NCBI GenBank assembly: GCA_003339415.1
Contig: PDHQ01000088.1
Coordinates: forward strand, 1-64,000
Direction of reading: 5' to 3'
From: Ophiocordyceps camponoti-saundersi (nom. inval.)
Taxonomy: Eukaryota; Ascomycota; Sordariomycetes; Hypocreales; Ophiocordycipitaceae
DNA length: 64,000 nt
The position numbers and the translations under genes are program-made. The notes under the pieces are model-generated. The model was not told the DNA's origin and ran no database searches. It saw only the letters and a program-made list of their open reading frames with translations. Positions 39,378 through 64,000 of this stretch are shown in pieces. The stretch's first letter is position 1, and every line of letters begins with the position of its first letter.

Positions 39378-42324
39378 TTAGGAAGAGGAAGAGGAGGAAG
39401 AAGAGGTGGAGGAGAGAGAGGACGATGAGTGTTCTAGACTACGAGGGATGGGTTTAGGGTTTTTGACCTTGAGCCACTCGCCGTTGAAGGCGTTGATGAG
39501 CCAGGTGGTTAGTTCTTTTTGCACATGTTAGCTGAGGATGAGAGGTGGAGAGGTGGAGAGGTGGAGAGAAGAGGGGGAGAAGGTTTGAGAGAGAGAGAGA
39601 GAGGGGAGAGAGGAGAGGAGAAGACGAACTGTCATAGACGATACGATTGGCGCTATGAAAGGTGATGCTATGATCACTGTCGGGAAAGACGTGGACGTCG
39701 TAATTCTCGACGCCGGCGCGGTCCAAGCCGTCGAGCAGACGGAGCGAATTCTGGAAGTGGACGTTGTCGTCCGCCGTGCCGTGCATGACGAGGAAGCGAG
39801 CGCACTGAGCGAGGGCGGAGGCGTTGCTCACGGTCGAGGCGTCGTATCCCGCCCTGTTGTCCTGGGGCAGACGCATGTAGCGCTCCGTGTAGATGGAGTC
39901 GTACAGACGCCAGTCCGTGACGGGGGCGACGGCGAGGCCGTACGAGAACGTCCTTCCCGCGTCCTGCTCGAGCGTCTTGAGGGTTTGGAAGCCGCCGTAG
40001 GACCAGCCCCAGATGGCGAGGCGGGAGGGGTCCACCTCTGACGAGTGCTGGGACGCGTAGCGCGAGGCGAAGGATGATAGGTCCTGGGCTTCGATGACGC
40101 CTAGGCGTGAGCGGACGGGGACGCGGTGGGGGCGGCCTCGGAAGCCGGTTCCTCGGGGGTCGACGGTGACGACGATGTAGCCTAGTGAGGAGGCGACGTA
40201 GGACTGGAAGTCGACTGCGAAGCGGTGCGTTACCGATTGGGAGCCCGGGCCGGAGTATTGATGGAAGAGAACGGGGAGTCGGCGGTGGGTGGCGTGTTGA
40301 TGTTGTTTGTTGTTGAAGAAGGTGGAGGGAGGACGGCGCTCGAGGTAGGAGAGGGAGAGGCCGTTGCCCATGTCCATGAATCCTCGGCGGAGACGGGGAA
40401 GGGCGTGGTCGCGGACACGAGAGGCGAGTAAGGAGTTGTCCTCTACGACGAAGCCTTCGGCGGGCACGAGGTCGGCGTCGTGTCGACTGGCCGAGGGCGT
40501 GGACACCACCCGCTGGTTGGGCACGTCCGGACCGAGGTACGAGACGAGGGCGAAGCCTGCTCCGGCCGAGAAGGAAGCGTCGTAATAGGCCTCGTCGTCG
40601 ACGGGCGTCAGCGGCTCGAGGCCGGAACCATCGAGGAGGTGGACGGAGTAGACGTGACGCTGCGTCGGACCCTGACGGGCGGCGACGAAGTAGACCAGGT
40701 TGTTGACCAGGTCGACGGCGGCCGGTGCCGAGTCGACCTCCCAAGGGCCCGACGTCAGCATCGTCGTCGGCTCGGCCGCGTCGAGGGGGGAGAAGTAGGC
40801 GAGGTGTTCGAAGCCCTGGTGGATGACGGTGTCGACGTAGCCGTCCAGCGGCCTGCCTCTCTCTGCGTCGGCCGGGACGAAGGCCGTCCGGCGGGAGAGG
40901 TCGAGCCAGCCTCCGTCGATGGCGGCGGCGTCGACTTCGTAGACGACGCGAGCCGTGCGATTGGCCACGTCGAAGAGCACCGTCTGCTGGTGATCGCCGA
41001 CTCTGTTGGTCTGCTTGATCAGGACGCGACCACTTCCAGCCCAGAGGACGTGGCCGACGATGCGGTCGTCGTCGGGAAAGGCGTCGGCTTTCGGCATCGG
41101 GAAGGCGACGAGCTTGGTCGTGTCGTAGAAGAGCACGTCGACGATCGGGTTGCGCGAACCGGGTTTCGGATATTTGATATGACGCGTCTCCGGGTAGGCC
41201 TCGTCGCCGGGCGCGGGCGATGTGCCGCTGGGGCGATGGAGGTAGTAGTCGATGGGAAAGGTGCGGACGGCCGTCTCGTTGGTACGGAGGAAGGCTAGAT
41301 AGCGACCGTCGGAAGACCACCAGGTGGCGGTGCGGTCGGACAACACCTCCTCTTCGTATACCCAATCCGGCACGCCGTAAAAGTATTCGGGTCCGCCGTC
41401 GGCGGTGACGCGGTCGGGGGCCGAGTCGTTTTCGAGGCGTCGCACGTAGAGGTCGTTATCGAGAGTAAAGGACAGAGCGTCGCTGGAGGGGCTCCAGGTC
41501 GCGAGCTGGACGCGAGCCGTGTCATTGTGCGGAACGAGAGGCTGGACGCGGCCCGAATCGACGTCGAGGATGAAGTAGACGGCCGTGAAGGAGTGACGCC
41601 AGAGCTTCTCCCTGTCGACGGCCAAGAGCACCTTTGTCAGGTCAGGGCTGGGCTCGAGCCAGTCCGGGCTGTAGCGCGTGCCCTTGTAGGTGAAGATGGG
41701 TGACTTCATCAGGGTGCGTGGACCATGTCCTGCCTCGTCGCCGCCCCAAGAACGCACGTCCTCGACAACGAGATAGTCCTTTCCGTTCGCGCCCTCCTCC
41801 AACAGCAGGCCGTCGCGACCGTCCGGACCGGCGATCCAGCTTATGGAGCGCGAGCGTGGGGACCAGAATCCGGTGAGCACCTGATCGAGGGAGACTGGAT
41901 CCTTGTTGGCGAACGCAGCATCTGCGTCGGCGCCGCCTCCTTCTCCTCCTCCTCCACCACCAACGACGTGCTTATACGAGCCGGTGGCGAAGAGGGCGAG
42001 GGCGACGAGCCACAGCGTGACGACGGCCGAAACGACGGCGATAATCCCGCGACGAAGACGACGATCCATTGGTTTGAAGCCGCGTCGTCGATCGGGATCA
42101 ATGGCGGCGGCGGAGGTAGAAGCGAGGAAAGGTCCCGCCTCGTCATTCACCGCGTCACGATGAAGACCTTCCTCAACGTCGTCGTCATGATCTTCATCAT
42201 TCGCGTCCCGAGGCGATGACGACTTTCGCATCGCTATCGGCTTCTCCATCTCTTCCTGTAGCCTATCGAAGACGAGGCTGGTGGTGGAAACGGACGAGAG
42301 CGAGTCGTCGACTTCGACCGCCAT
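39378..42324 (-). CDS. dapB: Vacuolar dipeptidyl aminopeptidase (DPP4 family, S9B)
   Basis: Type II membrane serine protease removing N-terminal X-Pro or X-Ala dipeptides, DapB/Dap2-like and probably in the vacuole membrane. Exons 42,324-39,630 and 39,514-39,378; 943 aa. An acidic cytosolic tail is followed by a membrane anchor at about residues 94-116 ([19 protein letters not shown]) and a propeller with the substrate Glu pair in DWVYEEEV. The hydrolase domain has catalytic Ser775 (GWSYGG), Asp852 (GTADDN) and His885 (SDHSI). The 115-nt intron near the 3' end is inferred because the first frame diverges after NRIVYD, while the family continuation [16 protein letters not shown] lies beyond an AAAAAG acceptor only about 13 nt after a GCTAAC branch site. 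The protein ends in a Ser-rich tail. The start chosen (MAVEVDD) drops a leader-like extension beginning at 42,447. Confidence 0.92.
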
Positions 42325-43236
42325 TGCGAGAACTTGAAGAGTATTCCGATGGCGAGGATGGCTTCTGAACAAGCCTTTCCATCTGCTAGTGAAGTGAGGC
42401 GAGGGAGTGAGGGAATTAAGAAGGAAAGGGAACAGGGTTAGAGCCAAGAGGAGGAGAAAGGAGGAGAAAGGAGGAGGAGGTGGAGGAAGTCTATAGAGGT
42501 AGGTAAGGAAGTGTGCGTACAGTAGTATGCAGGTAGGAAAGTATGTACTCCGTAGAGGAAGGAAGGAAGGAGGGTTGGTCGAGCCAACGTCTCAGCCTCG
42601 CCGTAGTCTCAAGCCTCAGCTTCTGTCGAGTCAAAGACACAAGCAGTTGCGCCACGACGTTTCGATCCCTTACCTACAAGGGGGGGGGGGGGGAAACTTA
42701 TGTTGGGAACATGAAGTCAGTCAATCCCGTTTTTTTAAACGCGTGACAATCATTCCATTCGCATCACCCTTTACATACCTATGTACATACATATATCCTA
42801 TCAAGCCTCAATGCCTCATCTTCCCTCTTGAGCTCTTTGTTGGGGTAGTGTGTTGCCCTTGCCGGGGACTGCCTGCAGGTCAAACGCGGGTACGTTCGGA
42901 TACGTGCAGCTTCTCGAAAGGATACCCACAAAAAAAAATCAAATTACATAATAAGCAAGAAGCCCCCGATGCCACTCACGTGATTAATCACCAATCTTTA
43001 TCAATCTCGGCACCTACCCTCCGTACTCAGTACCTACCTCCTTAGTAATTATCCGCTTTTCGCTGTCTCTTGTCGTCATATGCCTTCTCCTCCACCACCT
43101 CTTCCTCCTCTTCCTCCACCTCCTACATCGCCCACCTCGTCAGCAAAATTTCGCCACCTCGGCCATCATCACACTCGCCTTTCGCAACCCAATTTTCCCA
43201 TCAACGCACGACGAAAGTAGAATCCTCACCGTCGCG
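42325..43236. promoter_or_regulatory. Divergent promoter region of dapB and ISU1
   Basis: About 900 bp between divergent starts. Poly-G run at 42,680-42,693, ACATACATATAT at 42,785-42,796 and a CTCCTCCAC-rich leader (43,085-43,135) before ISU1. No gene seen. Confidence 0.5.
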
Positions 43237-43960
43237 ATGCTTCCTTTGCGAGCGCCATTCCGCGCCATCCGCGCCACACCTTCGCTGGTAACCCGACTGT
43301 CGCCCGCTCCTCGCTTCTACCACGATAAAGATATGTTTCCTCCCGGTCTCTCCCCTTCTCGCTCGCCGCTAACATCGATTCTTTCCTTGCTCTGCACTCA
43401 TCGACCACTATAGCCGTCCTCGAAATCCGGGCTCCCTGGATAAGTCCGATCCCTCGGTCGGTACCGGCCTTGTCGGCGCTCCGGCTTGTGGCGATGTCAT
43501 GAAGCTCCAGATCAAGGTCGACGATAAGACGGGGACAATCACCGATGCGAAATTCAAGACTTTCGGATGCGGTTCTGCAATTGCCAGCTCTAGCTATCTG
43601 ACTACCTTGGTCAAGGGCATGCGACGTGAGTCTCATCCCTCCCCCCCCCTCTCTCTATTCATCGCCGTCAAATCCGTCAATTTTCCTCGACTGACTCGAA
43701 TCTCCCGCAGTTGAAGAGGCATCCAAGATTCGCAACGTCGACATCTCTAAGGAGCTGTGTCTCCCCCCTGTCAAACGTTCGTCTCAATCCTCCCCATGTC
43801 TCCTCCAGATCTGACAAAGCCCCTCTTAGTTCATTGCTCTATGCTCGCCGAGGACGCCATCCGAGCAGCTATCGCAGACTACCAGGGCAAGAACCCCAAT
43901 TCCATATCCAACCTTGCCGGAACCGCCCGCACCCTCGACAAGCAGGCCGCTTCTGCCTAA
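43237..43960 (+). CDS. ISU1: Iron-sulfur cluster scaffold ISU1 (IscU type)
   Basis: Mitochondrial matrix scaffold on which Fe-S clusters are assembled from Nfs1 sulfur and handed on by the Hsp70 Ssq1/Jac1 system. Exons 43,237-43,330, 43,398-43,625, 43,711-43,776 and 43,830-43,960; 519 nt, 172 aa. An Arg-rich presequence (MLPLRAPFRAIRA...) leads into YHDK then VIDHYSRPRN. Cluster ligands are Cys62 (GAPACGD, with Asp64), Cys89 (FGCGS) and Cys132 (LHCSM). LPPVK (125-129) is the Hsp70 recognition site. The last two introns are GT-AG (85 and 53 nt). The first (43,331-43,397) has no AG that would keep the conserved VIDHYS and is read as AT-AC. The neighbour on the left is divergent dapB. Confidence 0.93.
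43331..43397 (+). other. AT-AC intron in ISU1
   Basis: 67-nt intron starting ATATGT after AAAG and ending TCTGCAC. A perfect fungal branch site GCTAAC (branch A at 43,372) is followed by a pyrimidine-rich tract and lies 25 nt from the 3' end. Splicing here joins codons for HDK to VIDHYSRPRN, exactly the family sequence. The donor differs from fungal GTATGT only at the first base and the acceptor from CAG only at the last. It does not have the U12 donor ATATCCTT, so it looks like a U2-type AT-AC intron. Confidence 0.8.
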
Positions 43961-44486: not shown

Positions 44487-46869
44487 TCATCCCGAGGACG
44501 TCGATGACCGGACCCCTCTCGCCCTCTCCGGCTCACCCGCCTCCTTTACCGCCTCTCGGCCATCGCTCATCCAAGCGTCAAAGGCCTCCCGGCTATCCGT
44601 CACCGGCAGTCGCTCCGCCACGGCCCGCTGCGTGCCGGCGTAACGGTGCAACCTGTCGCCGAAGCTGAGCCGCTCCGCCAAGATAGCCTTCTTCTCGCGT
44701 TTTTGCCGTAAACAGCAGAAGCACATGTAAAGCCTATGGCAGAGTGTCGTGTCCGTCTTCATCCGCTTCTCGAGCCGATCCATTTCCGCCTTGCGCGAGG
44801 CTGAAGCCGGCTGAAGGGACAGCTCGGCGTGGCGGCGAAAGTCGAGGCTCACGCCCCAGCGTATGGTGAAGAGGTGCTCGGCCAGGCAATCCAGCTCCTG
44901 CCATGACATGTGCTGATGTTTTGGCAGCAGCTTGTGGAGCTGCGATAGGGCAGCCAGCTCGACTTGCCGGCCAAAGGTGAGTGATAGGACGTGGGCGACA
45001 AGAAGGCTGGTACGGTCGTTATCGTTGTCCGGGTTGAGACAGCGTTCAGTACGGTTATTACAATGGACGAGCCTAAATGTCGTTTCGCTGCACCTGTCGT
45101 CGAAGATGGCGAGCGCACCGAGGGCGTCTTTGGCGAAGCCGTCTCCCGTCCGGACGCAGGCCTCCCACTCTTTCTTGTTCTGTTGCTCTCGGACGAAGGA
45201 TTGGATCGAATACGAAGGCGGCAAGTTGCTGCTGGCCTCTGTCAGATATCGGTGGCATTGCGCGAGGTCCAGATCATAGAGGAGCTGTTTATCCCGCACC
45301 GCCCGGATTACAGTCGGCCGGCCCAGCCTCTCGACATGCTTCAGCAACTGGCCAAAGTCGATGACTCGCCACTTGCCATCTTGAAGCAGAGGACGGCAGA
45401 TGCTGTGATTCTCTGTGCCTTCACGTCAGCGTAAATGCCCAGTCGATACAGGAGAAAGACAGCATTACCCGTAAACCGGGTGCTCTCAGTGTTTTTAAAG
45501 TAAAAGACGGTGCAGGATTCTGTCGTCTCCTGATCCTGGCATTTCTTGCACCAGTCGGTGCCCTCTACCGGGCGGCACTATCGACCATTTAGTCACGCAT
45601 CGTCTTCGAAAGAGTGATCATACGTACGGCGATGCCACTGAGCTTACACCGAACGCACACAGAGCGCTGGTCTCTCCTATTCTTTGCACTCAGCCTGACA
45701 TCAGGCGACAGGGACCGATATCTTTTGCCCCTCGGGCCTGAGGAAAACGAGTCAATCGGTCGAGGACTCGCGTTCATGTCTTCGCTCCTCAGAGAAGGGG
45801 TCGGGGGCTGTCGGCACCGTTTCGCGTTATGTTTGGGCAGCAGCGGCCGGTTGCTTTGGGTGCTGTTCGTCCTGGCCATGGAGTTGGCCACGTACCTTGG
45901 CGGCCCTTTGCTGCGCGAGGACGGTTGCGAGATGTAGGTGGAATACGAATGTGAGGAGCCCGTCTCGGATGGGTTGTATGAGTTTATTGACGGTCCTTGA
46001 CTGTAGAACGGCTGATCTGTCATGCCCCATGTCGGAAGGAACCCGGCGAGAGAGCCTGCAGAAGATGCTCCCATAGCGGGCTGCTGGACTGGATCGAACA
46101 TTAGCAGTTGACGAGCCGCCTCGGTGGAGGGCTGGGTCATGGTCGGGCTGTAAGGTGTGAAGGCCTGAGCATTGGGGCGGAGGGATGAGGAGGTGCGTCC
46201 TTGTGCTCCACGAGGCGCCTGGACACCTCTGTAACGCTGCTCATAGACGGCTTGGTTCGCAGTCGAGGTCGAACTCCAGATGGCCGAAGCGTCCCATCCA
46301 TACCCCATAAATGGGGGAACGTCATACGACAAGCCCGGAAAGCTACTGTGAAAAAAGGGGAAGCCTAGAGCCGGGGGCACGGAGGGGACAGTCACTGGCG
46401 AGGGCGAGATGAGATGGGTCGTTGTGTTGAGCTGCTGCCAGGCCATGTATGGATCATTGGTCCACAACCACGGCTCGTCGGCCACGATAGCGTTGAGAGG
46501 CAGTTCTCCGTACAGAGGGCCGGTGAAACGAGTTGGCGGCTGAGACGCCGCCGGGCCGGGGCTGTTGGAGCTGCCGTTGAAGGCGGTGTCGACAAGGTCG
46601 AGAACGCCCCGGGCTCTGTTCTGCGAGAGAGCAGAAGTTGCCAGAGAGCCATCGACGTCGGCATCACCCTCTATGACACTGTTGATGGCACAGAGTCAGC
46701 GTCGGCGGTCAAGAGAAAGGGGGTAAAGCACGGACAGAGGTAGCGCGTTGACGCAGTCGGTCGGGGTCGGCGTAGTAGAGACGGGGGCTTCTTCATGTTC
46801 AGCAGCTCCATTGCCCGCTACCATGAAACTGACCAAGGACGGGTTGATGTGGGCTCCTAGACCATCCAT
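44487..46869 (-). CDS. Zn2Cys6 transcription regulator with internal zinc cluster
   Basis: Exons 46,869-46,736, 46,678-45,628, 45,577-45,469 and 45,412-44,487; introns of 57, 50 and 56 nt, GT-AG with CTGAC/CTAA branch sites; 739 aa. The zinc cluster sits in the middle of the protein: Cys386-x2-Cys389-x6-Cys396-x8-Cys405-x2-Cys408-x8-Cys417, the spacing of fungal binuclear clusters. A 50-nt intron separates the second spacer from Cys396. The first 380 residues are Ser/Pro/Gln-rich and look disordered (MADEP-like segment, many SSS and QPP), with a basic patch RGKRYR and KNRRDQR just before the cluster. The C-terminal 320 residues are helical (ALSQLHKLLPKHQHMSWQELD) with no domain I can name. 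Probably a nuclear DNA-binding regulator; target genes unknown. Confidence 0.82.
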
Positions 46870-55300: not shown

Positions 55301-56069
55301 GTCAGGACGCACCGACCGAATGATGATTCCATGGTGACTGTACTCCGGCGTGCGTTTGAAGGCTTCTCGTTCAATGGCCAAGGGAAAGTTTCTCTTATTT
55401 ATCTGAAGTAGCCGGATGAACTTTTCGACACCATTGACGATGAAGTACCCGCCCAGCTCTTCCGACTCCTCTTTACGCCGGACTAGCAGCGCGGGCGAGT
55501 TATTCTCCAAGTGGCAGTGATTAGACTATTGAAAGGCGTGAGCAGATACACGCGACGGCGGAGGAGTCGATGGCAATTCATACCTTGACCATGATGGGTA
55601 ACTGACCCAGGGTTCGCTCAAACTCGATGGCTTTACCATGATTGACATCGTATTCAAATTTGACGCAAAGCTTTCCTCTGTAAGTAGCGTGACGTAGCCT
55701 ACATTCGGATGGAAGGATCTTTCTGCTGATCCCCTTCGTGCATTGAGCCAACTTGTTGGAGGACGGGAGGCGGGGCTTTTCCAGAGTCACGTCCTTGATA
55801 CGTATTCTGAGCTTGTTGCGCTCATCAAGCGCCATGGTCTCGTTCCCATCGAGATATGTCTTGTAGCCAATATCTGCAATGGCATGGGCCAATAAGCCCG
55901 GGCTGCCATCGGTGGGAAACAGGCGATTAAAGGCGCGGATGTGAGGGTTGACGGCTTCTTGAAGAGCCGGATAGGCGCTGTGATCGGTCGGTGGCTGTTG
56001 GAAGAGTTTTTGTCGGCGCAGGGTATCATATTGATGGTCCCACTCCGTCTCCGTAGGCGGAGAGGGCAT
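52328..56069 (-). CDS. RPA2: RNA polymerase I second-largest subunit (RPA135)
   Basis: Forms the active centre of Pol I with the largest subunit and makes pre-rRNA in the nucleolus. Exons 56,069-55,584 and 55,525-52,328; a 58-nt GTATGA...TAG intron; 1,227 aa, normal for the family. Visible are WDHQYDTLRRQKLF near the N-terminus, GNSPALLV-like and EESEELGGYFIVNGVEK after the intron, and LQQTSGFTVVAEKLNF with PESWGFLCPVHTPDG. The GYDMDDAMIINQS active-site segment is at about residue 775, GDKFSSRHGQKG at about 922 and a C-terminal zinc ribbon (CPSWICRRCG ... CRSCAV) at about 1,105-1,150. An upstream in-frame ATG at 56,147 would add 26 residues with no family match. The start codon is only about 200 bp from the AT-rich RIP block. 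Confidence 0.97.
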
Positions 56070-56459
56070 CGTGTCGGCCAGGCGAGGTCGTGTCTCGGTG
56101 TGAGAGCAGTTTTGCGATGCGCCGAGCCCAGATGTATGTAAGACCATGGGCGGGGGAAAGGAAGTGAATGGAATTTTGGCGGACGAATAAGTGGGATAAA
56201 AAAAATCACCAAACAAGGTGGGTGTGGCCGTAGGCCACGTGCGTATGCACGTGACACGCCTATCTATATATATATTAGCTTAGCTCGAGCTATGCAGGGC
56301 TCTCTCTATATAATATAAGATTATTACGTCCTACGCTTATCGTACTACTATATAGTTAGTAGCAATTCTACTTATCGTTCGCCCCGGGGGAGCCCCTATT
56401 CCCTTATTTCTGCCCGTCTCTTCCTACTAAATATAACTATACTTATTATATATTAGCTA
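56070..56459. promoter_or_regulatory. RPA2 upstream region and right edge of the gene island
   Basis: Normal composition up to about 56,265 (GCACGTGACACGCC), then TATATATATATTAG and mixed DNA. A partly spared, GC-containing stretch (56,340-56,430, including GCCCCGGGGGAGCCCC) comes before fully RIP-mutated sequence. The spared stretch may be the outer part of an LTR; no matching second copy was found. Confidence 0.5.
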
Positions 56460-59400
56460 TTAAGGTATATAAAGTACTAATAGCTATTAATAGCCTTATA
56501 TTATTATTACTAAATATACTATAATTATAAGCTTATTAATTATAATTATTATTTAATAGCTTATTATAATATAGTATTATATTTTATAATATTATTAACG
56601 AAGAGGATTAAATAAATATTATATATATTTTTATTATATTCCTCGAATTAAACCTTAATTACTAGCTAATTAAGTAAGCGACCTTCCTTATAATATTAAG
56701 ATAAGTAATTATATTTTAGAAAAAATAAGCTTAGTATTTATTTTATAATATCTTTCCTTATAATATACTAGCTTAATATTTATAAATATTAAGTATAATT
56801 ATTAATAATATACTCTAAAATATAATTAAGGCTATAGACCTTACTTAAGCTTACTTATTATTATTTACCTTCTCCTTATTTTATTTATAGCTATCGGAAA
56901 AACTTAACTTATTATATTTAGAGTTACCTATATTATATCTCGTAAACGCCGTAAAATAACTTCGTATTAATATTAAATTTTAGTATACGCTATTACTATT
57001 TCTTAAATATACGTAAAAGGTAAAATAAGTTAAGATATTTATTAGCTTACTTAAAAGCTACGCTAGAGGCTTTAGATTTACCTTAAATATTACGCTTATA
57101 CCGGACTTATTAAATACCTTAAAAATATTACTTATAGCTAATCTTATTATATAGATAATTACTTATATATTTAGGGAAAATAATTAAAATATAATATCCC
57201 TAATAATAAAAGCTATCTATAATATTTATAATAACTTATAATTAACTTTAAGTATATTAGCTAAAAATATTATAATTATTTTACGCTTAACGAATATTAG
57301 CTTTTTTAACTTAAATAAGAGAGATATTACTAATATTAATATATTATTAGATAATAAGTTAATTATTTATATATATATATTTATATTTAATAATAAGCTT
57401 TAATATCTTACGAGGACTTATAGCGAGATTTTAGTATATAAAATATAAACTTAATATTTATAAAAATTAGCCCTTATCTAATATACTTAAATCTTATCTA
57501 AAAAGATATAATAGGCGCTAAAGTAAAATATTATTAAAGATATTATTACTAAGTTATATAACCGCTTTAAGCTTTATTATAGTAAAGCTATAATATAACT
57601 TAGATAAGTATACTTTAGGCTTATTAATATTTATTATAGCTAAGATACCTATATATTTATTTAATAAATTATCTATAATATTAGGACTTATAATTACGAT
57701 ACTTAAGGCTAGCTACGCGCGGCGTACTAGGTATTTAACGAAGTACTCTAAGGAGTAATAAATAAACCTAGCGAATATATAACTATTAATAACTTCTTCT
57801 AATTTATTTAAGTTAAGGATTTAGCTATCTAATAATAAGTATTAGAGAAATACCGTAATACGCTAAATATCTTATTAGTATTACGATAAGGCTAAAGCTT
57901 ATATAACGCTTTATTTTAATTCTAGCTTATTTTTAAACTTTTTAGACTAGACTAATAAGGGCTATTACTCGGTAAAAGTTAAGATAAACGCGGTTATAAG
58001 GGCTAGGGCTTTTATAATATAAACTAAAAATATAGCTATAACTTATAAGGGTATAGCTATAACTTACTATATAATTATAGCTATAAGCTTAATTTATATT
58101 ATAAAATAAATTATAGTAAAAGTAATAGCTATTATTTACTTTATAATAAAGGTAATAGCTATAGTAATAGCTATAGCTAAGGTAATTATTAAAACTTACC
58201 TTATCTTTATAATAGCTTTAATTATTAGCTCTTACCTAACTAAACGCTATACTAAAGCGGCCGTAACCTATTCTAAAAAATACCCCTACTAGCACTAATA
58301 AGATAAGCACCTTATACTAGCACGGCACTACTATTAGCCGGCGTATAATAATAAATAATATAATATAAGGGGTTTATAAAAAATACGCTTAACGCCTTAG
58401 ACTAGCACGAAAAGATAAATAAGTAGCTTAACTAGTATAAATAGCCCGAAAACTATAATAGCTACTAGAACGCTTATAGCGCCCTTAATATATATAACTA
58501 TAATAAATAAACGTATTATATAAAGATATCTAGCTTCCCTTATAACTTATAAACCGGGAAGCTATAAGATTAGATAGATACCTTACCTAAACTTAATAAT
58601 ACCGGCGATACTTATTATATTACTATTAAACCTTAATATACTTACGTATATCGTATATATAACTTCGTTATATTTAGTTATAATAAGCTCTTCCGCTACT
58701 TATAGGTATTATATATAATAAACGATAAATTATAAGTATTCTTCGCTATTATAATAAAATAAGGTTAGAAAATACCTTAGTTATTTACTTTAGTAACTAA
58801 TAGACTTTATATTTGCAAATCTAATACTATACCCCTTATAAAACTAAGGTAGTAAACCTACCTTAAGCTTTAAATCTACCTAAACCTATCCTAGCTATAT
58901 ACGATATTAGATATTTACGCTAATATAAGTTATAATATTATAATAGTAGACCGCTTATAGATTATAATATTCTATCTTAAGCTAACTATTTACTTCTAAA
59001 TATAATTATATATTATATATAATATTAGATTAAATATATATAATATAAGGGAATATATAATATTACTTATAAACTTTATTAAGTAAGATATATCCGGTAT
59101 TAATATAGTTGCTTACTTTACCGCGAAAATTATACTCGTAAATAACCTTCGCGCTAATATACTAATTAGAATAGATATCCTTAAGCTATAAGGCGTTAAT
59201 ATTATTAACTTATAAGAATATATTATCTTCTAATATTACGGTATATAGGTTCGTATAATATTATAGTAGCTAGGCCTAGCTTAGCCGTATATTTTCTATA
59301 TTACTATAAAATAAAAAATATCGATCGCCCTAAGTTTTACGTATAAAGTATAAATAACTTATTATATATTACTACCTTACGAGTATATTTTTAAGCTTAT

Positions 59401-62400
59401 CGCTATACCTAATCTTAGAAGCTATACCTTACTTACTAATAGCGATACTAAATAAGCTATTATAATAAATATAACTATTAGATATATTATACTTATAAAA
59501 TACTAGCTTATTAGCTACTTATATCGCTTAAATATAGCTATATATAAATATAAGATCTTACCGGAGAATATACTAATAGTAGCTAACCTTGCCGCTAAGG
59601 ACTTAGAAAAGCCGGAATAATACCTATTTATACCTCCTAAAAACGATAAGGTCCTAACTTATATTACGAGAGTCTCTATCTATATAAAGCTAGGTACGAA
59701 CGATACCGAACGCCTATCTTAACTCGTTATATAATATATAGATATTTTTCGCGATAAGAGATTCGCCGTATATAATAAAAATAAGATATTATAAGTATAG
59801 CTTATCCTAAACTAATATATACTTATTCTAAAAAAATATAAAGTATATCCTCTTAGACTTATAGAATAAGAAATTATATATATTACCCTTAGTAAGCTAA
59901 AAGCCGCGGGTAAGGTTTTTTATATATAGGATTAAGTGCCCTTCGCCTTACTTATATTCGTAGTTTAGTAAGGGATACCTCCTAAAAGATATATAGTTAT
60001 TAACGCTTAACTTTTTAATAGAATATACTTATAAAACTAATATCTAATATATAATTAGGATAAGATATAAGCTAAATTAGTATATATTACTTATATTATT
60101 ATAATAAATATTATAAGTTTCTATTACTAATAAAAAATATACCTAGATTTAAAATAAGGCTTTACTATTATTATAACTAATAAATAGTATATATTTAATA
60201 TACTTATTATAAGCTATTATAGCTATAATATATATATATAATAATAGGTTAACTATATCTTATATTATACTGCTATAAACGCTTATTATAATAATATCGT
60301 TATCTTATTTATCGGTATCGATTAATATTTATAAAACTTTAAACTTATCTTCTAGCGCTTTTATAACTTAAATATTAATATCGGACCTAGTAAGTTATTC
60401 GTAAGATATAATATTATTATAGTGCTTAGTTAGATATACGATAATTACGGACTATATACGCTAGAAGAGAAACTTAATACCGTACGTAAACTTCTTTTCC
60501 CTAAGTTAATAAAAGATCTAAAGTACTTTCTTAGCTTTATAAATAGCTTAAGATACTATATACTATAATACGCTATAATTATAAAATTACTATAATAATA
60601 GAAAACTAAGCTTTAGTATTATTACCGCGCTATTAAGTAAGCTAAAAATTATACTACGAAAGGCAGCATAAAGAAAATAAGGACTATAATTATTAATATC
60701 GCTATCTTATCTATAGCTAAGCTCCGCGTATTTAATAAGATAAAGATAGTACTAATAAATTATATAATACTAATATTCTTTACTATAAAGCGTATTCTTT
60801 TTATAAATTTTAATATATCTTATAATAATATCGGCGTTATAGTTTACTATATTAATAACGCTATAATTAACTTTCTTAAGATAGATAGATTAATTACGAA
60901 ATACTTACCTATTAAGTTAATATAACCGGTAGCGTTCTTATTATAATACCTCGTACTAGCTAAGAAGAAGTATTAGTTTATAAAGCTAGAAATAGTAAGA
61001 TATATATAAATACTTTCTAAATACTATATATAAATTAATATAATAAAATGCTTATTAATAATTTATTTTATAAATTATATATTTATTATATCTATATATT
61101 AATAAATAGATATTATTAATATTATAGCTAAGTTAGCTATAAACCGTAAGCTTTTAAAGGGTATAAAATATATTAGTTACTTCGATATAAGATTAATTTA
61201 TAAAAGCGGTCGCACGTATATTATTTTAGATATACTAAGTTAGCTCCTAGCCGAATACTTACCGCTATTAACTACCACGCTTAGGTAACTAAATCTCCTC
61301 CCCGATAATAAGCCCGATAATTAGATTTAAATTATAACCTTATAAGGCGATATATACTAAGCGATAATAATACTAAAACTTATACTACTAGCTACTATAT
61401 TCTATAAAATTAGCTAATTTATAATATATATAATTATTATATCTAATAATTTTAAATAGTAATTTCTAGAAAGATATTAGAATAACTTAATATATAAAAA
61501 TATCTTAGAGACGATCGCTAGTAACGATACCTTATAGCTAGTAGATAGGGCCGCCTTACTATTCTATACTAAGATAGATAATATATTTTAATACTAAACC
61601 TTTAACGCCGTACCCTAACTATATATCTTAATATTATATATATAATATATCTTTTCTATAATTTATAACGATAACTATATAAAATATAACCGCCTTATAA
61701 ACTAACTTTAGCTTTTTTTTATCCGCTATAGTTATCGCTTATTACGATAATATTTTTAAATATACCTAATATACGAAATATATTATATATAATAATATCG
61801 ATTATATAAGTTACTCTAACCGATCTAAGTACTAGTAAACTTATACGAAACTATTAGCTTTAATTTCCTACTAAGCTTACTTATATCTAATAACGGCTAC
61901 GACTTAGCTATAATTATAGTAAATTAACTATCTAAAAAGATTATTATCGAACTATACTAAAAGATAAATTCCGCTACTTAAAATAGTATTACCCTAACTA
62001 GGCGTCTCTTAAATAATAATTAGGGATTACTATAAAATATTATTATAAATAGGGATCTTAAGTTCTTATCGGTAATATAGCGTATAATATAGCGATAATA
62101 TTAAACTTAACTATCTTATTTAACTATATATTACCTATAAACTAATAGTTAAATAGAGAGATTTATCTATATTATTAAGTTCGTATTATAAATATTAATT
62201 AACTCCCTATATAACTTAGTAAAATAGCTAATAGCGGTCTTATATATTTAATTCGAACTAAATAATACTATATTAGTATTTATAAGATAAGCGCCGAACG
62301 TTATTATAAAAAAGTTTATATTTACGGGCCTTATAGCCGTACTAACGTTATTAATATTACGATAGAAAAACTTATTATCTACGCGTATAAAAGCTAGAAA

Positions 62401-62870
62401 CGCTATCGCCCTAGCTAGAATAATAGTAAAGAGATATTATAACCGCTATTATTAGTATATCTTATTTAAGATAGGCGATAAAATATATCTTTATTTATAT
62501 TATAGATACTAACTTCTATTTATAATCCTTATAAAGATTAATATTTAATATTACGGTTTATTTAAAGTTATAAAGCGCGTAGGCTGCGTAGCGTATAGAC
62601 TAGCTATTTTATAATATTAAAAAATTTACCCCGTTATAAATATAGAATAGCTAAAACTAGCTTTATTAAACCCCTTTATAAAATCTAAAATTATATTACT
62701 AACCGATATTATTAAGAAGATATTAAAACGAATTATTAGTTAATGTTTATAATATAATAAGATTAAATACTTAATACGATTTATTAGCCTCGGCTATAAA
62801 TATAATATATAGATCCCTATCGCTAAACTTAGCTTAATTACTATAACTACTTTATATAATTAGTATTATA
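56460..62870 (+). mobile_element. Dead Ty3/gypsy chromovirus, right flank
   Basis: Degenerate gag-pol on +. The reverse transcriptase active-site box at 60,284-60,301 reads YYNNIVI with both catalytic Asp now Asn. The thumb region (EEKLNTVRKLLFPK, then LKYFLSF) is at about 60,450-60,540. Integrase has NRDLKFLS at 62,046-62,070 and L-stop-TNS-stop-IERF at about 62,134-62,166, where HPQTNxQTER is expected and the stops are TAA for CAA. A chromodomain (KYLIRFISLGYKYNI-stop-IPIAKL) is at about 62,760-62,835. This order marks a chromovirus. The Gag part (about 56,900-58,600) is only weakly readable. Termini not found. Confidence 0.78.
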
Positions 62871-64000
62871 TAAAGTATAATACGTAACTATTACTAACTA
62901 GTAATATTACTATATTACTATCTTAGGCTCTTAATAGCTATTATTCTAAATCTCTTTTCCTTCTTTTTATATTTTTTTATACTTACTATACCCTCGTATC
63001 TCTAAGCCTCCCCCCCTATTATCTATAAAGTTTCCTAACTGCCTTAATAATCCCTATAACTCTCCCGCCTACGATTAGCCTCTCTTATACTTAAATCCTA
63101 TACTTAGCTTATTCTTTGCTTATATAGCGAATACTAAGCTTAAAAATAAGCCTCTATAAGTAATAATAATAATTATAAAATATAACGCTATTAAACTTAA
63201 GTCGATAAATACTAATAACGTAATTATAAATATAATAGATAAGGAGAATATAATAGCTAATATTATAGCGGATAATATAAATATCGCTACTAGTATAACT
63301 ACTATAATAACCGTAAAGCGGCTATTAAATAACTAAACCTTAATTAATTAATAAACTAAGGAGGATAATAAAAATATTTATAATAGCTTTTTAATATATA
63401 TAGTAGCTTAATATATATAACTTATTACTACTAACGATATTACGAATATTATTATTTTATCCTAAACTATTATAATATAAGCTATTATAAATATAATAAA
63501 CGTATATAGATATATCTTACTAGCTAATAGCCTTTTAATTATTAATATTAATAAAGTATAAAACTTATAAAATAACCTTAAATACGCTATTTACTATACG
63601 CGATATATTTATAACTAGTAATTATATAAATATATTAATATAAGTATTTACCTAAACTTAACTATAATAAATATTATAGATAATATATAGATAAGGTATT
63701 AGTATAATATATTACGAAATAAGTTTAGAGAAATCTATAAATAACTCTTATAAGCGGAATACTAGCGCTAGCTTAACCTTATTAAGGATAATATAGTAAT
63801 AAAATCGAATACTAGTCTTAGTAATTATCGCTATTAAGTTAAAGCTAAATACGTAATAAACCTAAATTAGATCTAATTCTTACTCGCTTATAATATCTTT
63901 CCGTAAGCTATAATAATATAAAAAGATATTATCCTTATATTATAGAAATTATAAATAAATATTTTTATTAATATCTAGCTTATTAATTATCTATTAAGCT
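62871..64000. mobile_element. RIP-mutated DNA, possibly the start of another element
   Basis: After the chromodomain come a pyrimidine-rich stretch (62,950-63,080) and, from about 63,150, a long +-strand frame with few stops (for example INTNNVIINIIDKENIIANIIADNI at about 63,210-63,290) that may be a Gag remnant. It runs off the window edge; family not determined. Confidence 0.35.

Follow-up and report, generated by a model that had tools for sequence, protein, structure and literature searches.

Animals are known to have U2-type AT-AC introns, and rare cases are known in fungi as well. Yeast introns doubly mutated to A at the first and C at the last position are said to have been studied by Parker and Siliciano in 1993; the intron described here carries the same two base changes, whereas it is natural and apparently shared by several genera rather than made in the laboratory. 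Fusarium graminearum belongs to the Hypocreales, as does Ophiocordyceps. Passages of PMC3577648 list an AT-AC intron among its non-canonical introns from RNA-seq data, and this could be the ISU1 intron or one of another gene. For yeast, a fungus without U12, passages of PMC6726248 describe the use of AT-AC junctions in SUT635 and RPL30; those junctions are alternative or lie in a noncoding RNA, whereas the ISU1 AT-AC junction is apparently the sole splice that keeps the protein whole. Among animals, the sodium-channel introns (SCN4A intron 21) resemble the ISU1 intron in their AT-AC ends, the G at +5, and their removal by the major spliceosome, but the cited part of PMC2831892 proposes that they are derived from U12-type introns, whereas the ISU1 intron is a short fungal one in a phylum reported to lack U12 splicing. 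Caenorhabditis elegans, a lineage seemingly without minor snRNAs, has at least 42 suspected real AT-AC introns that are probably U2-type (PMC3033335, in excerpt); these belong to another kingdom, whereas in ISU1 a single intron is traced across genera through protein models. AT-AC introns are rare in fungal annotations, according to passages of PMC7072748. In the accessible portions of the literature on AT-AC introns (fungi, Metarhizium, Hypocreales, Fusarium, and ISU1), no report of the ISU1 case was found; because the passages of PMC3577648 leave the F. graminearum gene unnamed, an earlier report of this intron in a relative is possible.

The window analyzed here is a 64,000-nt stretch of contig PDHQ01000088.1 from the ant-infecting fungus Ophiocordyceps camponoti-saundersi, and it contains an ISU1 gene, which serves in iron-sulfur cluster assembly, with three introns (Table 1). 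The best reading of the first of them, judged from sequence, is an old intron with A first and C last that would be removed by the major spliceosome and be common to two fungal families. The first-pass annotation had already proposed a 67-nt AT-AC intron with these ends and a GCTAAC branch site 25 nt from the end, and the sequence bears this out, the distance from the branch A to the last intron base being 25 nt.

Table 1. Coordinates of the ISU1 gene, its exons, introns, and splicing signals in the window
Feature	Position	Strand	Remark
ISU1 gene	43237-43960	+	four exons
Exon 1, coding part	43237..43330	+	mitochondrial presequence to YHDK, plus G
Intron 1, AT-AC	43331..43397	+	67 nt, phase 1; from the sequence and relatives' protein records
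Intron 1 5' splice site	43331..43336	+	ATATGT, differing from the U2 consensus GTATGT by A at +1
Intron 1 branch site	43368..43373	+	GCTAAC, branch A at 43372
Intron 1 3' splice site	43394..43397	+	GCAC, C replacing the last G
Exon 2	43398..43625	+	starts TC ATC GAC CAC TAT (VIDHY)
Intron 2	43626..43710	+	GTGAGT..GCAG
Exon 3	43711..43776	+
Intron 3	43777..43829	+	GTTCGT..TTAG
Exon 4	43830..43960	+	to the stop codon
Alternative GT-AG intron, rejected	43335..43413	+	removes VIDHYS, yields the deposited protein P0001

Joining position 43330 to position 43398 and removing the GT-AG introns 2 and 3 gives a 172-amino-acid ISU1 with a whole IscU domain. It matches the IscU equivalog model TIGR01999 (cutoff, 192.4 bits) with 210.1 bits over profile positions 1 to 122, and the sequence, the reading frame, and the protein fit one another in the window. 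A scripted search of positions 43331 to 43420 found a single AG, at 43412-43413, within the VIDHYS codons. Thus, no combination of a GT donor and an AG acceptor keeps the conserved frame with VIDHYS, and two earlier claims hold: the HDK and VIDHYS codons have no AG between them, the first one being at 43412, and a GT-AG solution has to delete conserved residues, as the intron from 43335 to 43413 does. It is very improbable that this GT-AG intron is the true one and that the fungus makes an ISU1 without VIDHYS. Such an intron is in frame, the models of Ophiocordyceps camponoti-leonardi, O. sinensis, and Purpureocillium lilacinum share the resulting YHDKDIRPRN, and the product passes the IscU cutoff, if narrowly (192.7 bits over profile positions 10 to 122). 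However, the complete IscU match is obtained only with the AT-AC splice. The residues that would be lost are part of the conserved IscU start, where solved ISU1 and ISCU chains align across YHPKVIEHY/YHKKVVDHY with the same YHxKV beginning, and their codons are conserved wherever models read them (LIDHYS and LLDHYS). Models from other genera carry unrelated inserts here instead (DKSPARPM.. and DESLFPQ..), as would be expected of gene-finder artifacts. The GT-AG intron was therefore rejected on grounds of protein conservation. Its translation is identical in every letter to P0001, the deposited protein of O. camponoti-saundersi, which is very probably a forced GT-AG solution.

The splicing signals of intron 1 are those of a U2-type intron. 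The donor has G at +5 and T at +6 and lacks both CCTT and RTATCCTT, and GCTAAC is a U2-type branch site at a U2-type distance, so that the view of the first-pass annotation that the intron is U2-type and not U12-type is well supported. That the intron is instead excised by the minor spliceosome is the least probable of the alternatives that we weighed. Its AT-AC ends would agree with this, because the minor spliceosome recognizes most AT-AC introns according to passages of PMC7072748, but the donor is ATATGT instead of ATATCCTT, the branch A is 25 nt away from the intron end, and the donors deduced in relatives vary at +3 and +4; the donor and the branch site led us to reject a U12-type identity. 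A genome search for U12, U6atac, and U6 RNAs found U6 and neither U12 nor U6atac, a result obtained without a positive control for the latter two. The cited parts of PMC10639083 and PMC2846911 report no convincing minor introns in Ascomycota and count U12 splicing as missing there, respectively.

An AT-AC motif alone is not beyond chance and is common in AT-rich DNA. A loose AT..CTAAC..AC pattern matches the window 10 times, including 8 matches within AT-rich stretches. The genome-wide scan for AT-AC introns covered two stricter patterns: the ATATGT pattern is found at four places (the ISU1 intron and three others) versus two for a reversed control, and the ATGAGT pattern is found at three places versus two. 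No clear intron was recognized among the six other matches, which were assessed by open-frame length and not by homology; the match with the longest joined frame (L018) is open for 296 amino acids even when unspliced. The ISU1 case is more than chance because it lies in a conserved reading frame and because matching ends are deduced in relatives.

Relatives were compared through 127 proteins, namely, the best 120 of 7,997 matches plus 7 new ones from another search, and their intron bases were deduced from protein models and open reading frames (ORFs) rather than from DNA; a 22-base pattern search for the DNA of relatives matched one contig of a viral collection and four contigs titled bacterial. 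Wrong gene models are informative here because the intron ends get translated in them. Nine of the 127 listed homologues read YHDKV, while 22 have HDK without YHDKV, and the residue that follows is Asp in all 22 and Gly in none. Since Asp after Lys is encoded by GAY, it would represent the last G of the exon followed by an intron that starts with A, unless the model splits that codon, as could in principle happen. Read-through of a GT intron would give Gly, and its absence points to A as the first intron base. Nineteen of these Asp-reading proteins are named models from six genera (7 from Ophiocordyceps, Hirsutella, and Purpureocillium and 12 from Metarhizium, Pochonia, and Claviceps), and three are unnamed ORFs. 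Hirsutella and Purpureocillium belong to the Ophiocordycipitaceae, and Metarhizium, Pochonia, and Claviceps belong to the Clavicipitaceae; taxonomic look-ups covered O. camponoti-saundersi and Drechmeria.

Back-translation covered 15 of the 22 proteins (P0121 and 14 others). Read straight, 11 of them have a donor compatible with ATRAGT, while P0011, P0013, P0014, and P0019 have no ATRWGT donor and can be reconciled with one only by assuming that the splice of the model falls within the following codon; several of the Asp-reading models splice one or two codons past the Asp and are weaker witnesses. The deduced donors are ATAAGT-like in Metarhizium, Pochonia, Hirsutella, and some Claviceps and ATGAGT-like in other Claviceps, so that positions +3 and +4, AT in O. 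camponoti-saundersi, would be AA or GA in relatives. All of these look like the ordinary U2 consensus with the first G changed to A.

The other end of the intron can be approached in the same way. The codon of the Val in VIDHYS is aligned in 17 proteins with PRNPGS and reads Val in 11 and Leu in 6 (P0010, P0022, P0024, P0121, P0125, and P0126). A Leu here implies that exon 2 is preceded by C, or by T in the case of a TTA or TTG codon, and not by G. Among the relatives, an ORF designated P0121 is the strongest witness for an AT-AC intron; it lies on a contig of 7,475 nt and shares its presequence with the Metarhizium humberi model. Its frame stays open across exon 1, the intron, and exon 2 (YHDK-DKWSSLSAASHQGPFFFFRSFTPFFAHIQLTCLIL-LLDHYS), the intron being 105 nt long, a multiple of three, and free of stop codons. 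Its back-translation gives the donor ATAARTGG, and its QLT is compatible with CTAAC. No AG can exist between this CTAAC-compatible branch site and the LDHYS codons; one can exist upstream, in the Gln codon, and a GT-AG splice that adds residues could make use of it. Deduced from the records of other genera, an A as the first base and a base other than G as the last one also speak against an assembly error or a decayed gene copy in O. camponoti-saundersi. The assembly is a draft of 733 contigs, which leaves room for such an error, but ISU1 is otherwise intact and a second copy was not detected; a protein search of the 45.7-Mb genome, in which three candidates were scored, detected one ISU1 locus, and only these exons matched. 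We therefore consider an error or decay highly improbable.

The first-pass annotation had read the intron as U2-type AT-AC, which stands, and as a natural double change from GTATGT...CAG, which may have been the original state. With A-first and non-G-last ends deduced in two families, the AT-AC intron does not look private to O. camponoti-saundersi; judging from the protein records, related fungi of insects and plants seem to have it too, and gene finders seem often to go wrong there. The start of IscU is garbled, shortened, or missing in at least the 22 Asp-reading proteins and in P0010, P0023, P0024, P0035, and P0070, a sign that the same annotation error has recurred at ISU1 intron 1 across relatives. 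For example, the models of Purpureocillium lilacinum (P0035) and Drechmeria (P0070) begin only beyond the intron 1 site, and that of Claviceps africana (P0023) skips it. The models P0006 (O. camponoti-leonardi) and P0011 (O. polyrhachis-furcata) also look wrong near intron 2, with extra or frame-shifted residues after KGMRR. Four named models (P0002 to P0005) have a whole start, P0003 with VIDHYS. P0003 apparently comes from the genome of PMC7341126, which, by the cited part of that paper, was annotated with transcript intron hints; the hints suggest splicing evidence, although the intron of that species could also be a GT-AG one. P0008 is an ORF on a contig of 1,166 nt; it reads YHDKVIDHYSRPRN and continues across the positions of introns 2 and 3, and it looks like a spliced transcript. 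P0002 to P0005 and P0008 could all derive from GT-AG introns.

For the phylogeny, 56 of the 127 proteins were chosen by hand, including 16 of the 22 Asp-reading ones. The Clavicipitaceae and Ophiocordycipitaceae ISU1 proteins (NPGS type) fall in a different half of the tree from the NVGS-type proteins of Cordycipitaceae, and the two types are perhaps two old paralogues with different losses. The half that contains both families (support, 92/92; not starred) also contains four proteins on a long shared branch, from Grosmannia, Thielaviopsis, Ceratocystis, and one unnamed source. The 16 Asp-reading proteins do not form one clade (eight changes); part of this scatter comes from relatives interspersed among them whose models are correct or truncated. 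A single origin of the intron ends is neither proved nor rejected by the protein tree.

Taken as a whole, the data are best explained, with a probability of about 0.9, by ISU1 intron 1 being a U2-type AT-AC intron with an A/C pair that is probably ancestral and probably trapped. We infer that the intron is indeed spliced and that U1, U6, U2, and U5 recognize it by means of its near-ideal ATATGT donor and GCTAAC branch site. Because both are good U2-type signals, recognition by U1, U6, and U2 should be ordinary, and the second step would be the unusual one, with the first A contacting the last C as G and G normally do. This step would work because A first and C last can contact each other: passages of PMC6726248, with reference to Parker and Siliciano (1993), give A/C as a known working replacement for G/G in yeast and rank AT-AC second only to GT-AG in efficiency there. 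The ancestor that Ophiocordycipitaceae and Clavicipitaceae have in common probably already carried the A/C pair, which was probably retained because reversal needs a simultaneous change of both ends. It has been proposed, in the cited part of PMC2831892, that U2-type AT-AC introns become trapped in this way, and the ISU1 intron fits this idea. This is a real intron, unusual and yet of a known kind, probably old rather than recent, and misannotated in many relatives.

A more far-reaching version, which we regard as likely, is that a compensated double change, arising once, has stayed fixed in an essential gene ever since the common ancestor of the two families, in a phylum reported to be without the minor spliceosome, as a splice-site fitness trap in which each single reversion would be harmful, and that it has been masked by gene finders that force GT-AG ends. 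If true, it would be a natural and datable splice-site fitness trap. An intron kept across two Ascomycota families would make both the contact of the first and last bases and the trapped-intron idea testable by species comparison.

It is also conceivable, if unlikely, that the AT-AC ends have been kept as a regulatory brake, with slow splicing or retention lowering ISU1 output. Retention of intron 1 in O. camponoti-saundersi leads to an early stop and a 58-codon product, and the unusual end has apparently been conserved for long, as a brake would suggest. However, the length and the open frame of the intron in the Metarhizium-like P0121 make a conserved retention-decay switch unlikely, at least as a general one, and for the same reason the earlier suggestion that inefficient splicing tunes the level of ISU1 is unsupported.

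As for the surroundings of ISU1 in the window, a 312-amino-acid open frame without a Pfam match lies on the minus strand at 44487-45425. On the other side, ISU1 is adjoined by a dipeptidyl aminopeptidase-like gene (39454-42591, minus strand), a 1,045-amino-acid open frame with DPP IV N-terminal and peptidase S9 domains. A gene island richer in GC, at approximately 24 to 56 kb, is bordered by AT-rich blocks at 1-24000 and 56000-64000, where the GC content in steps of 2 kb is 0.22 to 0.36.
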